This document shows, in pieces, positions 10,926 through 16,215 of a stretch of DNA of 26,919 nt. The DNA comes from Coemansia sp. RSA 487 (Eukaryota; Kickxellomycota; Kickxellomycetes; Kickxellales; Kickxellaceae), in contig JANBRJ010000144.1 in NCBI GenBank assembly GCA_027577595.1, forward strand, positions 1 through 26,919, given 5' to 3'. How positions within the stretch are numbered: the stretch's first letter is position 1; each line of letters starts with the position of its first letter. The notes beneath the pieces were generated by a model. That model saw only the letters and a list, made by a program, of their open reading frames with translations. It searched no databases and had not been told where the DNA came from. The position numbers were made by a program, and so were the translations under genes.

Positions 10926-11057
10926 TAATATGAATAAAAGTATATTATAAAAACTGAAGACCCAAAACCAGAGGAGAAAAGTCCATCTATCTGTGATGAC
11001 ATGGCATGCTGTTAAATAGTGGTAAACATACATCCGGTAATTAGATTTCGTATCACA
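10926..11057 (-). repeat. Right copy of the ~135-bp inverted repeat pair
   Basis: This is the reverse complement of 10007-10143, starting with the same 46-base identical block at its outer (right) end. It lies in a minus-strand open frame (10872-11114) whose only in-track start is TTG and whose C-terminal half is hydrophobic. That frame shares CDTKSNYRMYVYHYL with the left copy, then diverges through small indels. Confidence 0.8.
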
Positions 11058-11170
11058 ATCCTTGTCTCTATTGGCATCACTGCCAAGTATGTTTAGAATA
11101 TAAACACTTGCCAAGTAGCCACAGAATCGTATTATAATCTGTAAGCTTCTTTAGTATTAAAAATACTGTA

Positions 11171-12075
11171 TTGTTTTTTAGCGTGTTAGCTATTGTAATC
11201 ACAAAGGCGCCTGTAGTGGCAAAAGGCGCTGTCGTTCAGCTTCAGACAAGCACAGTTTTTGCTTGTAGCTCTGGATTCGAGTCAACGTTGCGCTCAAAAG
11301 TTGACGACCAAACTCGCAAAACAGGACACTGTGATACCAGCTACAACATAGAAGCAAGCGGATACGATGGAGCGCCATCAGAAGACCGACAATATCTAGA
11401 GCTTGGATACTGGTGTTAGGAAGCACAGCAAGCTAGAGAATACCGCCAACACCATTGCATACTACGCAGTTAAAAGCACACAAAGACCAATGAATATTTT
11501 CTTCCGCAACAAGTACCTCCACCAATCTGTCATGCTTGAGGCTGTTGCAGTGGTGCCAGGAATGGTCAGCGCTCTTATATACCACATAAAATCGCTCCAG
11601 GGAATGCACCATGACGGCGGCTGGATCGGAAATCTCCTCCACAATCCGGAGAACGGGCAATTGCACCTAATAACGTGGATGGAGGTTGGAAAGCCCGTGT
11701 TCTAAGAGCGAGCCCCGATTGTGACGGCCCAAATGGGCTTTTTTTTCAGACTTTTCTGTGCTCTACGTGGTCAGTCCGTGCACAGCACACTGTATTGTCG
11801 AATATCACGAGGAGGATGCAGTCACATCATACGCGCATTTCATCAAGGAGGTTGACGCTGGGAGAATCAAAAACTTTAAGGCTCCCGATATCGCTATCGC
11901 TTACTGGAACCTCGACGAAACAGTCACCCTTCGCGATGTTGTGCTTGCTGTGCTGGCAGGCGAGGCTCTCCACCGCGACACCAACCACCATTTCAGCAAC
12001 CGAATCCGTGCTGGCCGCGAAAGCCTTTTTGAAGACTTGGGACACACTGAAAACAAGTCGCGCATAAAGTACTGA
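11171..12075 (+). pseudogene. AOX: Alternative oxidase (AOX, mitochondrial ubiquinol oxidase) pseudogene
   Basis: Three adjacent frames together show AOX features. Frame 11171-11419 has no ATG and reads like a presequence region. Frame 11403-11705 carries TIAYYAVKSTQRP, MLEAVAVVPGMVSA and GGWIGNLL. Frame 11758-12075 carries YVVSPCTAHCIVEYHEEDAV, APDIAIAYWNL and GEALHRDTNHHF. AOX is a di-iron enzyme of the inner mitochondrial membrane that oxidises ubiquinol and bypasses complexes III and IV. Damage is clear: the HP-Y segment preceding AYYAV is missing, with a frame change near 11410. The ligand motif normally NERMH reads NGQLH (Gly codon at 11655-11657). A TAA at 11703-11705 is followed in frame by the AOX-like ERAPIVTAQMGFFF, and a further frame change occurs near 11745-11757. 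Introns would not explain an in-frame stop plus loss of an iron ligand, so I call it a pseudogene. An intact AOX may exist elsewhere in the genome. Confidence 0.85.
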
Positions 12076-12229
12076 TTTTCAGTTACACACAATAGGATAT
12101 TACAAGTTCGCTATTTCTCATAGATACATGTTTATTCATATAATCTAAAAATAAACATGAAATAAGGCTAACTGATATAACCAAAAACGCACGTGCTTGG
12201 TTTCATATAGCACAAGAAGGTACTAAAAC

Positions 12230-12457
12230 TTACTTGATGTAGAGGGTGGTTGCAGAATCGAACGTATTGTTTTTGGCGCTATAAGTACCAGTATTATCCG
12301 TGTAAATGGAGAGAGCAGTTACACTCCTATCGTCTTTCTTAAGCTGCTTAAGGATTTGCTCGCCAGTCCAGCCAGATATAGCGGTAACTGTCTTTATTTG
12401 ACTTGCCGTTGGAGCAGTGTTTCCAACAGGGTGAATTGTAATCTTGATGGTGACCAT
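12230..12457 (-). CDS. Small protein of an unrecognised two-member family (copy A, 75 residues)
   Basis: ATG-initiated frame of 75 codons, opening MVTIKITIHPVGNT and ending FDSATTLYIK. No known family recognised. A paralogue lies at 14565-14783: both begin with a strand-like ITI.P.GNT, have a central helix-like segment (GEQILKQL here, GSEILEKL there) and end in an alternating hydrophobic strand with TL. The order strand-strand-helix-strand-strand in about 75 residues is compatible with a ubiquitin-like beta-grasp fold, but there is no diglycine tail and sequence identity to ubiquitin is not evident. It has no signal peptide or Cys. The ~230 bp upstream is also similar between copies, with a TATA-like box at 12555-12562. 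The stop codon overlaps a GTAAGT (minus strand, about 12231-12236), which could be a 5' splice site; splicing would change only the last residue or so. Confidence 0.7.
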   Translation of the reverse strand: MVTIKITIHPVGNTAPTASQIKTVTAISGWTGEQILKQLKKDDRSVTALSIYTDNTGTYSAKNNTFDSATTLYIK

Positions 12458-12554
12458 TGTTGAAGTTGGTTGTTGCTCGAATTGATTGCTGTTTGAATTT
12501 GTCGCTGGATGGTGAGATGTTGTTTTTGAACTGGTTGAGTGGAATTTAGTTTAG

Positions 12555-12562
12555 ATTTTATA
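12555..12562 (-). promoter_or_regulatory. TATA box of small-protein gene A
   Basis: TATAAAAT on the minus strand, about 100 bp before the ATG at 12457. The equivalent site in copy B (14867-14874, TATAAAAG) is at a similar distance, which supports it. Confidence 0.55.
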
Positions 12563-12623
12563 TTGTAGCGAACTGCTAGGAAATTTTACTTGTCTCCAAA
12601 TATTAGACCCAGCCATTTCAGGT

Positions 12624-12641
12624 TTTAGTATTACATCAGCA
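12624..12641 (-). promoter_or_regulatory. 18-bp element conserved upstream of gene A
   Basis: TGCTGATGTAATACTAAA on the minus strand, about 165-185 bp before the ATG. Copy B has the same sequence with one substitution (TGCTGATGCAATACTAAA) at 14938-14955, about 155-170 bp before its ATG. A further shared TAAATCTG block lies about 20 bp upstream in each. The rest of the promoters has diverged more, so this may be a regulator site retained after duplication. Confidence 0.5.
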
Positions 12642-12670
12642 ATTTTACACATATAGCTGCTTCAGATTTA

Positions 12671-14564
12671 GAAAAATTTATATATTCCATTTATATAGTT
12701 GATAATACTATTTGTAGATATTTTCTGTTATACATACTCATTATACATAGATAGTTTGGATATTTTAGATTCAGATAGAATTCGACATATATGTAGTCAT
12801 ATATAATGGTACTATTTATAATATAAAAGTTGGTGTGCGTAATAATAACTGCTTTTATTTAATAGACCTATATAATTAGTTGGCACTTTATATTGGAAGA
12901 AATGCACACTTGTATTACATGAGCAGAATTAATAGCCAGTCTATTAGAGGAGCTTCAATAATATATTTTCATTTTCATTTTTATATAATTATATCTGTCT
13001 CTATAATATTACCTATTCAGAATAAGGCTACCTGCAACCACAATTACTGCAATTGACATAGCCAAAAATATAAAGACATGTCTCACAAATGTTTCCAAAA
13101 TGAATCTAAAATTTCTTTGCATTTTTACAATAAACCATGGCTTTTTATAGCTGCTACAATCAAACAAAACTATTTGGATAATTGGATAGTGTTGGCATTA
13201 TTTTGGTACATTTTGTATCTGGCCTAGACAGGCTTATATATATCTGTTAGTCAGTCGGCTCTGCGTACGGGGTCTGGTAATTTGATCGAGATATTTACCA
13301 AATCTGAATATACAATATCAACTATACTCGTTTTTTGTTTTTACATGAAATCTTAATAAATAAACTGTTTCAAAACTCGATGATCTCAACTACAATAAAA
13401 TGAATGACCAAGTCGTTTTATTTATAGGAATCGAGGTACAGCTTGATTCCTGTGAACGTTACTATATAAGAGTCTTTTCGCGAGTATGTTAATTTCCTTT
13501 ATCATGTGATATATTGTTAAAACATTCTAGTAACACTTCAGCACGGGCTCCAGAGTCTACCTGTTAGCTTACCATAGCTCTTATTATGACAAGTATATTT
13601 ACATGTCCGAATTCCATGAGCGGGAGCTTGTGCTATGGAATACGGAGGTCAGATCTTGAGATGCGGATAAACGATCATATTTCGTGTTCAGTATTGATCG
13701 GTAAATCACGTGACTTTACCGATCAATTGGCAGTCGTCGTTTGCTTGCTAGTTCCAGCTAACAGATAGTATATATCGCATGCTGTTCAACAATATGATTG
13801 ACTCAATACTAGTCAGTTATATTGGGACCCAGCTTGCGAGTCGCTGAACTGAGTCATTATCTCAACATGTGTCAAGCAGCGGCATTTTGGGCTAGAGGTT
13901 GAATTATTTTTGCTTTTCTTTTCTATCAATAGGAATAGCACCTAGTAAAAAGAGAGACAATGCAGCCAGTCTCCCACTGGAATTTTGAAATTGAATAGAA
14001 GACAAAATAGGCAGACACTAGTATCGGATATGTACAAATCTGGTAGAAGATTACATACTGTTAATGGACATCAGCTTGGTTGCACTGGAAATTAAATTGT
14101 TGCTAGGGAAACCAGACGATACAGCACTAGACATCATTCAGTAACAACAGCTGTGACGAATCGAGCATGGACCTGGGATGGATAACAAGGAGTATTCAGA
14201 TGATGTTTTATCTTTTATTTCCTTTCCATAAAAACCAATGAAATAAAAATAAATCCATGCCATTTTCTCAAAGGCAATGTCCAAGGAATGTTGCCCTTTT
14301 ATATGTAACAGAGAGAGCCGTTACATATAGTGCACTATTACAATGTCCACAACCAGTGGTTGCCCCAGCCCATCTGTATGGAAATCAGCCCTGCATATGA
14401 CAACACACTAGCGTGACAACAGCAATATATTTTCAATATTTAATGGTGTTGTTAATCTCTTTATTTATAAATTTATTTGCATTAGCTAAAATTGAAGCCC
14501 AGCTAAATGATAAATCCTAAATGATGCATGCTTGATTTTGTCTAATACATAAAGGGATGGAGGC
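12671..14564. other. AT-rich gene-free stretch between the two small-protein genes
   Basis: About 1.9 kb of strongly AT-rich DNA. The only notable structures are the CACGTG-centred palindrome (13693-13727) and a 10-bp inverted repeat, TATATGTAAC/GTTACATATA with a 10-base spacer (14300-14329). A 60-codon frame at 13586 has an ATG but no family signal and overlaps the palindrome. I see no RNA gene. Confidence 0.5.
13693..13727. promoter_or_regulatory. 35-bp palindrome centred on TCACGTGA
   Basis: Perfect 13-bp arms, ATTGATCGGTAAA and TTTACCGATCAAT, flank TCACGTGAC, whose core is itself palindromic. It could be a high-affinity site for a dimeric bHLH factor, a cruciform-forming sequence, or an insertion-site remnant. 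The half-element GGTAAATCACGTG (13700-13712) is identical to 5451-5463 upstream of the NIPA-like gene. No gene starts within 700 bp. Confidence 0.6.
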
Positions 14565-14783
14565 TTATGAGTAGAAGAGAGTGATACTAGCTTTGAAAAG
14601 TTTACCTGCAGCATCGTTACCACCAGTGGCATATCTACTAATTTGGGTAGCACTGATAGCCTGTGGTCCACCTGTTAGCTTTTCAAGAATCTCAGAGCCT
14701 TTACATGCACTATCAAGGGAGATAGAGTGGGAAATATCGGAAGGAGTATTGCCGGCAGGCCTGAGGGTGATAGTTATGGGCAT
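14565..14783 (-). CDS. Small protein of an unrecognised two-member family (copy B, 72 residues)
   Basis: ATG-initiated frame of 72 codons, opening MPITITLRPAGNT and ending FKASITLFYS. It is paralogous to the 75-residue protein at 12230-12457: the shared core is ITI.P.GNT, G.EIL..L, then F..(A/S).TL. Overall identity is low, about a third by eye. The leader is strikingly alike: both end TTCAACA before the ATG and both contain CCATCTCACCA-type or CATCTCACCA sequence 40-60 bp upstream. A good TATA box (14867-14874) and the 18-bp element (14938-14955) lie at matching distances. Both copies keep full frames, whereas the nearby AOX has decayed, suggesting that they are or were recently under selection. 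Function unknown; the predicted strand/helix pattern would allow a beta-grasp fold. Confidence 0.7.
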   Translation of the reverse strand: MPITITLRPAGNTPSDISHSISLDSACKGSEILEKLTGGPQAISATQISRYATGGNDAAGKLFKASITLFYS

Positions 14784-14866
14784 TGTTGAAATTGTTGGCT
14801 GCTTAGATGTACTAGGTGGTGGTGAGATGGTGTTTCTTGGATGGATTGAGTAGAAATTTTGCCTAG

Positions 14867-14874
14867 CTTTTATA
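14867..14874 (-). promoter_or_regulatory. TATA box of small-protein gene B
   Basis: GGTATAAAAGC context on the minus strand, about 85-90 bp before the ATG at 14783. It is a near-consensus TATA box at a position matching that of copy A. Confidence 0.6.
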
Positions 14875-14937
14875 CCCTGAAAAGATATTGTAGAAGTGAC
14901 TGGCCCATCAGGAATTTTAAAGTAGTTATTTCGGGAG

Positions 14938-14955
14938 TTTAGTATTGCATCAGCA
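14938..14955 (-). promoter_or_regulatory. 18-bp element conserved upstream of gene B
   Basis: TGCTGATGCAATACTAAA on the minus strand; 17 of 18 bases match the element at 12624-12641 upstream of copy A, at nearly the same distance from the start codon. Confidence 0.5.
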
Positions 14956-14985
14956 TTTCTATCGATATAGATGTTTCCAGATTTA

Positions 14986-15552
14986 AAACGTATCTAGATA
15001 CCCCCATTCCTTTATTAATAGATTTATTTACAAACATCGATTTATTTTATATACACTAGATAATTGAAACCAGTATTCAGATATAGTGATTACTTATGGA
15101 ATTGGACTGGAGCTTTCTGATTCAAGCACCATGCCACCACATGTTCAGAGATTCATCATATCAAGATTGCAAGTTTATAGCCATTTAGTCTAGAAAAATA
15201 AACCAATCAATGACAGCCAACCAGCGGTATTATTATATAAAGTATGCTATTTATAGAAGGATACAATAATATAAATACAAAGTTTCTTGTGAATTGAAAA
15301 CTATAAAAGGCAATATCATTTCTATAGCAATGCTAAGTATAACAGTTACTATGGAATACTTGCTTGATTGCGATCTACTGGGCAAAACAATTTTCCTGCT
15401 ACAAAAAGGATTGTACACAGTGGTATCAATAGAATCCAGAGACTTTAAGCAGCGCTTTAGGAATTTTATCTTTTACTTTACAAAAGGTTACTTTTCAAAA
15501 ATTGGAACATTTCAATTGGAAACATGTAATTCATCATTAGCAAGGAGTTCTG
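14986..15552. other. AT-rich stretch between gene B promoter and Faf1 3' end
   Basis: No supported gene. A frame running 15294-15629 overlaps the 3' end of the Faf1 gene on the other strand, is AT-driven and has no family pattern. I see nothing else here. Confidence 0.5.
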
Positions 15553-16215
15553 TTAACGGTGGTGTTTCTTTGGACCGGACCTGGGGTTATTTCCACCTTT
15601 CTTTGATTTTCCAGCACGCGCGCCACTGACGCGGTCAATGTGGTTTTTCGAGATATGCAGCACACCGTCCTTGAATTTGCCAGATCCAATCCTGAGCCCT
15701 CTGTCTGTGTCCTTCCTGGGCCGCGAATCCTTGGGTGCCGACGCCTTACCGGTATACATGATCTCGAGCTCGCGCTTCATCGACGCATTCAACACGCCTC
15801 TGTCTTTGGCATCCTTTATATGCTTATCAGCCTTTGCCTGGCGATTTCGTTGTACAGCAAAATACATATCGGCAGGCATTTTCTCTTTGCTTTTGACTTT
15901 CATGCCCAGCTTGGCCAGCTTTTGCGTGTTGTATTTGTGCCGTTCCCGACCCGTCAACTGCGACTCGTGGAGTTTTTCAATCATCAGCTTGCCTTCCAAG
16001 AGGTCTTGAAGCTCCTTGTCGTTCTTTTTATCTTGCTGCTCTTCCTTCCGTTCTTTCTTTGTTAGTGGCGCTGGTGGATTGTTTAGCTTGCTTATCTTGG
16101 ACGTCATGAATGATTTGTACTCGTGTTTGCTGGCGGTCGACTTGGCTTGCGTTGTGTCCTTGAATACCATCACTTCGGGGGCACGCTTCCTTTTAGGCTG
16201 TGTGTTGGCTGGCAT
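15553..16215 (-). CDS. FAF1: Faf1/C1orf131-family 40S ribosome biogenesis factor (DUF4602)
   Basis: The 220-residue product is highly basic and Lys-rich. Its C-terminal block, RGLRIGSGKFKDGVLHISKNHIDRV (residues ~173-197), matches the GKFK.G.L.LS..DI signature of yeast Faf1 and human C1orf131. Upstream there is a coiled, charged region (KKERKEEQQDKKNDKELQDLLEG, ~53-75). It ends with a Gly/Lys/His-rich tail. Faf1 is a small-subunit processome factor needed for early 18S pre-rRNA cleavages. The ATG at 16215 begins MPANTQPKRKRAPEVMVF, a probable nuclear or nucleolar signal. It is shorter than yeast Faf1 (346) but close to animal C1orf131. The family call rests mainly on the C-terminal motif. Confidence 0.75.
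   Translation of the reverse strand: MPANTQPKRKRAPEVMVFKDTTQAKSTASKHEYKSFMTSKISKLNNPPAPLTKKERKEEQQDKKNDKELQDLLEGKLMIEKLHESQLTGRERHKYNTQKLAKLGMKVKSKEKMPADMYFAVQRNRQAKADKHIKDAKDRGVLNASMKRELEIMYTGKASAPKDSRPRKDTDRGLRIGSGKFKDGVLHISKNHIDRVSGARAGKSKKGGNNPRSGPKKHHR

Follow-up and report, generated by a model that had tools for sequence, protein, structure and literature searches.

A dispersed family of small genes in Coemansia sp. RSA 487, with a ubiquitin-like fold predicted for one member and no di-glycine tail in the intact ones

Ubiquitin is a byword for slow evolution, and the small protein MoaD works through its C-terminal di-glycine. A ubiquitin-like domain also serves as the header that opens the Crinkler (CRN) effectors and occurs in Ssk1/Mcs4 (PMC5289972), and many CRNs are described as having no clear signal peptide (PMC6131194). 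In this work, we analyzed a stretch of 26,919 nucleotides from Coemansia sp. RSA 487 (GenBank assembly GCA_027577595.1, contig JANBRJ010000144.1, positions 1 to 26,919), hereafter called the window, which carries two very small genes, W1 and W2. By computation, we find that they belong to a family of about ten loci dispersed in this genome, the only one in which it has been seen so far, the scans beyond it being limited viral and prokaryotic ones. The interpretation that we favour, with middling confidence, is that these are single-exon genes for stand-alone, non-conjugatable proteins of ubiquitin fold, which would act by binding and evolve under diversifying selection, most likely as part of a conflict.

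W1 (protein P0001; 12230-12457, minus strand) and W2 (protein P0002; 14565-14783, also minus) are intact frames of 75 and 72 residues, stop codons included in the coordinates, and lie 2.1 kb apart. The initial annotation had presented them as two paralogues, and their kinship is real: the proteins align globally with a score of 75 (z 8.7) that none of 3000 shuffles reached, at an identity of 29-31% varying with the alignment. They are nevertheless not the only two. We searched the 17.8-Mb assembly (184 contigs, the window being contig C144) with seven single-member protein queries (W1, W2 and five others) and with one consensus-like query. The union of the single-protein searches contains ten loci, seven intact and three broken, eight of which lie elsewhere in the genome; the consensus-like query recovered nine of the ten and no new one, and these counts are lower bounds. 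A DNA search of the genome with the upstream region of one member (C38a) gave no additional member, and a C-terminal DNA pattern matched two known members only, its control pattern giving 3 matches. Chance frames are ruled out by the W1/W2 shuffles together with the eight further loci.

Besides W1 and W2, the intact members are C5:283458-283682, a copy of W1 with 92% amino-acid identity, C7:19588, C31:947, C38:50797 (C38a) and C16:246226 (contig, then position). Of the broken ones, C113:14719 is frameshifted close to the start, C38:107665 (C38b) is a fragment interrupted by an in-frame stop, and C152:61 runs into a 267-bp repeat at the contig end. ATG, frame and stop are in register at 7 of the 10 loci in the family alignment. 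Members are 70-76 residues long, and pairs of intact ones are 22-39% identical, W1 and its C5 copy excepted; the first methionine, two isoleucines in strand 1, a proline, one isoleucine in the helix, a phenylalanine and a leucine in the last strand are invariant in all seven. Since ATG and stop align in each of these, single-exon genes are likelier than parts of a larger spliced gene. The case shows how a family can escape annotation, with members below 80 residues and, bar one close pair, so little identity between them.

Fold modelling covered P0001 and P0002. With an alignment of two rows, the two window proteins themselves, AlphaFold2 gave for P0001 (75 residues) a model with a pLDDT of 91.1 and a pTM of 0.79, in which strand, strand, helix, short bridges and strand follow one another as in a beta-grasp (beta-beta-alpha-beta...beta in about 75 residues). 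When this model was compared by Foldseek with solved structures, 1224 matches were obtained at E<=10. Among the 50 of these that were listed, ubiquitins and ubiquitin-like domains dominate, with TMq values up to 0.67 and rmsd from 2.7, most of the listed ubiquitins standing at TMq of about 0.6-0.67 and probability 0.99-1.00; the remaining proteins of the 50 are presumably holders of beta-grasp domains. Against viral predictions, the third match is a giant-virus polyubiquitin, and many further matches are named ubiquitin. P0001 has, on this modelling, a predicted beta-grasp/ubiquitin-like fold. The seven intact frames end in TLFYS, TLYIK, TLYVK, SLYIG, TLYYT, TLYYS and TLYYS, the stop codon coming directly after the last strand of the fold in all of them; none has a C-terminal Gly-Gly, nor an extension behind one. 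Without a di-glycine tail, the proteins of the family would not be conjugatable.

The initial statement that the genes belong to no recognised family thus stands for the sequence and not for the predicted fold of one member, which is a familiar one. Pfam assigned no family at its cut-off to the seven intact members or to the C113 frame (best E 0.05 and 0.079); the weak names behind these values, CitF (E 0.05) and DIPSY (E 0.079), were dropped as unrelated. Ubiquitin was also absent from the results of sequence-profile searches of the PDB, in which the best E values were 0.19 and 0.39. The scans beyond the genome used viral and prokaryotic collections without fungal genomes. A phage tblastn search with P0001 only gave two matches, both at chance level, and none was confirmed in viral contigs with P0001 and P0002 or in prokaryotic genome contigs with P0001 only, two scans that reach close relatives only. 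Literature searches at the level of titles and abstract openings found no description matching the family.

The evidence for selection comes mainly from comparing C38a with C113. Their flanks are alike, with identity at 597 of the 650 positions aligned (91.8%) over 660 bp upstream and at 108 of 124 (87.1%) over 130 bp downstream, whereas the coding parts share 149 of 220 positions (67.7%), a divergence about four times that of the 5' flank and 2.5 times that of the 3' flank. The kind of change differs as well: 39 transversions and 32 transitions in the coding part, 16 and 53 in both flanks together. Over the 66 codons behind the C113 frameshift, we counted 57.5 nonsynonymous and 7.5 synonymous changes, that is a dN of 0.535, a dS of 0.176 and a dN/dS of about 3 (P 0.0024 by a Fisher test on rounded counts). 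Not one of 2000 neutral simulations using the transition bias of the flanks came down to this number of synonymous changes, the simulated mean being 18.8 (sd 2.9). Columns that are hydrophobic in the other members are more often unchanged in this pair (8 of 12, against 17 of 54 for the rest; Fisher P 0.045). The changes in C113 after its frameshift may be unconstrained. Relaxed constraint alone, however, leads to a ratio of 1 and fails to explain a ratio of 3 or a coding rate far above that of the flanks. Replacement of one gene by a distant copy is also unlikely, since the dS of 0.176 is near the flank divergence (8-13% of sites), while other distant pairs stand at 0.6 to more than 3. We take at least part of the family tree to have probably evolved under diversifying selection.

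Several results weigh against this interpretation. For the fold, only 2 of the 5 models of P0001 are confident (90-91), the other three scoring 47-54, and all come from the two-row alignment; the P0002 model is poor (pLDDT 54.4), its main elements following the same order as in P0001 at low confidence. The best Foldseek match to a solved structure has an E of 0.015, with none at or below 0.001, and it is a molybdopterin-synthase chain (6jc0_A); in the viral comparison, two phage proteins not named ubiquitin come first. Hhalign comparison with ubiquitin, Nedd8, Rad23 and Dsk2 sequences gave nothing (probability 0.5%). For the selection, the signal rests mainly on the single pair C38a/C113, one copy of which is frameshifted. 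Between W1 and its C5 copy we counted 7 nonsynonymous changes and 1 synonymous, which is indistinguishable from a dN/dS of 1 (simulation P 0.24). The 38 codons of the fragment C38b give a dS of 0.285 and a dN of 0.236 when compared with C38a, but 0.138 and 0.321 when compared with C113. dN exceeds dS in 6 of 28 member pairs, namely two close pairs and C5/C113, W2/C16, C31/C113 and C16/C7, which include distant pairs near saturation in both. Finally, gene conversion at some loci (the alternative oxidase genes of C5 and C16, see below) means that the conserved flanks could be partly homogenised, although conversion is unlikely as the sole cause of the contrast between flanks and coding part in C38a/C113.

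Among the other explanations, one could propose that the proteins are effectors, delivered or secreted by an unconventional route and acting against a host or a prey, which would be related or analogous to the CRN ubiquitin-like header but free-standing. Their small size, the AT-rich and repeat-bearing islands in which their genes lie and the excess of amino-acid changes would fit. On the other hand, Pfam gives no family at its cut-off for any of the seven intact members, the frame ends with the fold and has no effector domain behind it, and no signal peptide is evident by eye, the N-terminus being the first strand in the P0001 model. We consider this explanation rather doubtful.

A second proposal is that of a selfish or defence module, made of killer or immunity proteins, or of factors engaged against transposons or viruses, and maintained in repeat islands. 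It draws on the genomic surroundings, which the initial annotation had rightly called a decaying AT-rich island. The GC content is 0.38-0.39 in the 3 kb around W1 and around W2, against 0.47 for the whole window, and at all ten loci the surrounding 3 kb are poorer in GC than their own stretch. A 267-bp repeat with TG...CA ends and a 5-bp direct flank (ACAGC) lies between W1 and W2 (14152-14418, strand unassigned). Counting itself, it is matched at least 43 times in the genome at E<=0.001 (40 of 130 candidates scored); 10 of these matches start at base 1 of a contig, and 13 other near-full copies are 96-99% alike. It reads as a solo long terminal repeat (LTR) of a retrotransposon that was active recently and interrupts the assembly. 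Of the 9 stretches with family members that were compared, 5 contain this LTR-like repeat. The dispersal of the copies, three of them broken, and the fast protein change in one pair would also suit such a module. Yet with at least 43 matches genome-wide, nearness to the repeat is weak evidence, and we rejected for the same reason the idea that the family is its cargo. DNA homology between loci is patchy and its ends differ; no common element boundary was seen, though no systematic search for one was made. A family-wide partner gene is also missing: when the window and nine fetched stretches were compared, both as DNA and as protein, the neighbours found in common were alternative oxidase (AOX), at 3 of 10 loci, and a P-type ATPase-like frame, at C38a and C38b. 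A selfish or defence module is, in our opinion, unlikely.

At W1, at the C5 copy and at the C16 member, the small gene follows a convergent AOX gene at a distance of about 150-190 bp, and of these AOX copies only that of the window is broken. The latter (11183-12075, plus strand, its ends placed by alignment with C5) differs from the C5 coding sequence by indels of 3, 2, 72 and 1 bases, and its frame 11490-11705 matches Pfam AOX at 1.2e-18. Between about 12000 and 12480, a segment comprising W1 and what lies behind it, the window and C5 are 93-98% identical; identity drops to 70-85% upstream of W1 and, after an intermediate 90-92%, to 76-87% in the oxidase. The high-identity stretch may be a conversion tract. 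Between the intact AOX genes of C5 and C16 (fetched stretches L018 4341-5303 and L016 278-1312), dS is 2.7 at the 5' end and declines along the gene to 0.11 at the 3' end, a gradient that is a sign of gene conversion. The DNA similarity of C5 and C16 stops about 30 bp behind the AOX stop, and the small genes beyond are only 22% identical (16 of 73).

Other features of these regions are reported for completeness. The P-type ATPase frames beside both C38 members (L022 8207-10000 and L023 5967-9800) are 40% identical over 502 residues, the longer one being P5-type by Pfam, and are perhaps an old segmental duplication. Near the same two members, contig C38 carries an inverted 723-bp stretch, 99.3% identical (L022 6984-7706 and L023 4254-4976). 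At 0.8 kb from the C31 member, a frame of 158 codons (L008 1949-2422) has a hydrophobic stretch after its first ATG and, judged by eye, could encode a small secreted protein. Among the other genes of the window are those for THO complex subunit 1, NOG1 and a NIPA transporter, which are eukaryotic proteins. At 708-1647 is a piece of a gene for Fanzor, the eukaryotic TnpB-like nuclease: the frame 708-1394 matches the PDB entries of Parasitella parasitica Fanzor 1 (E 1.3e-27) and Spizellomyces punctatus Fanzor (4.4e-13), and the frame 1363-1647 looks, by eye only, like its continuation, Pfam at 0.001 returning nothing for either frame.

One would also wonder whether these are remnants under no constraint, small genes of old date that serve no function today and drift in a decaying island. 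Three of the ten loci are indeed broken, as is the neighbouring AOX copy, and the ratio for W1/C5 cannot be told from 1. The initial annotation, which argued for function rather than chance frames, had named a dN/dS near 1 as a sign against it, and the outcome is mixed, W1/C5 being indistinguishable from such a value and C38a/C113 standing at about 3. Its argument for function is otherwise supported. ATG, frame and stop have stayed in register at seven loci, and dS exceeds dN in 22 of 28 pairs, most of those pairs being near saturation; the frame thus seems constrained in the long run. Nor would drift give the coding excess of C38a/C113 over the flanks or a dN/dS near 3, and we regard remnants as improbable. 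As for true conjugated ubiquitin-like modifiers, which the length and the predicted fold would fit, the absence of a di-glycine in all seven intact frames contradicts them and leaves them hardly credible.

We come back to non-conjugatable binding proteins in a conflict, for which the following mechanism can be proposed. Each gene would be transcribed from its own TATA promoter. The regions upstream of W1 and W2 can be aligned over about 210 bp (12480-12688 and 14790-15002, both minus strand, converted by hand to window coordinates) with a local score of 106, against a background mean of 22.8; 6 of 1500 background segments reach 106, these segments being taken from the same loci and so containing pieces of the family's own flanks. 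TATAAAA lies at -105 from the ATG of W1 (12556-12562, minus) and at -91 from that of W2 (14868-14874, minus), and the leader TTCAACA-ATG is present at both. An 18-bp block, TGCTGATGYAATACTAAA, is common to the two regions, as TGCTGATGTAATACTAAA at 12624-12641 and TGCTGATGCAATACTAAA at 14938-14955 (both minus); it is also found upstream of the C5 copy and is not clear at the other five members aligned. All these elements had been noticed before under the name of a shared promoter, a term that is right for two copies of a similar upstream region and not for one promoter serving both genes. Rfam found nothing at gathering scores over 11000-16000 of the window.

The protein would then act by non-covalent binding, with variable residues at the surface of a conserved core, and that surface would change in step with a partner that changes too, be it a host or a parasite, a selfish element or a self/non-self partner. 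As the likeliest mechanism, the protein would serve as a binder or decoy of small size, occupying a surface that binds the ubiquitin fold or some other protein surface, as engineered ubiquitin variants do. It can even be imagined, as a bold extension to which we give little credit, that the family is the natural counterpart of these variants, a genome-encoded repertoire of free tail-less folds with surfaces diversifying under selection, each copy of which would bind and block a different partner of the conflict. If the proposed interpretation is true, a little-studied eukaryote would be using the ubiquitin fold as a scaffold for recognition, and the family, with flanks alike and proteins changing about three times as fast as silent sites, would offer a ready-made set for locating the surface under pressure.

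A parallel can be drawn with several known systems. With ubiquitin and ubiquitin-like domains, the family shares the predicted fold, the order of the elements and a length of about 75 residues; it differs by having no detectable sequence similarity and no di-glycine, by its several divergent copies and by the fast change in one pair. 6jc0_A, which we take to be a MoaD-type small subunit of molybdopterin synthase, is likewise a beta-grasp of a length close to that of the family proteins, with the difference of the C-terminal di-glycine that the family does not have. Engineered ubiquitin variants, such as 6d4p and 8j0a among the Foldseek matches listed, presumably act by binding and resemble the family as a ubiquitin fold with an altered surface, binding by the family being a proposal only; they are made in the laboratory, whereas the family is encoded in a genome. 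The nearest described analogue would be the CRN ubiquitin-like header, which the family resembles in a ubiquitin-like fold, predicted here; many CRNs also have no clear signal peptide, and by eye none is evident in the family. In contrast to this header, the domain of the family stands alone, and the arrangement that defines CRNs, an LxLFLAK-type header followed by an effector domain, was found in none of the seven intact members. We do not claim CRN membership, because both the Pfam match and the effector domain are missing, and we propose the header as an analogue.
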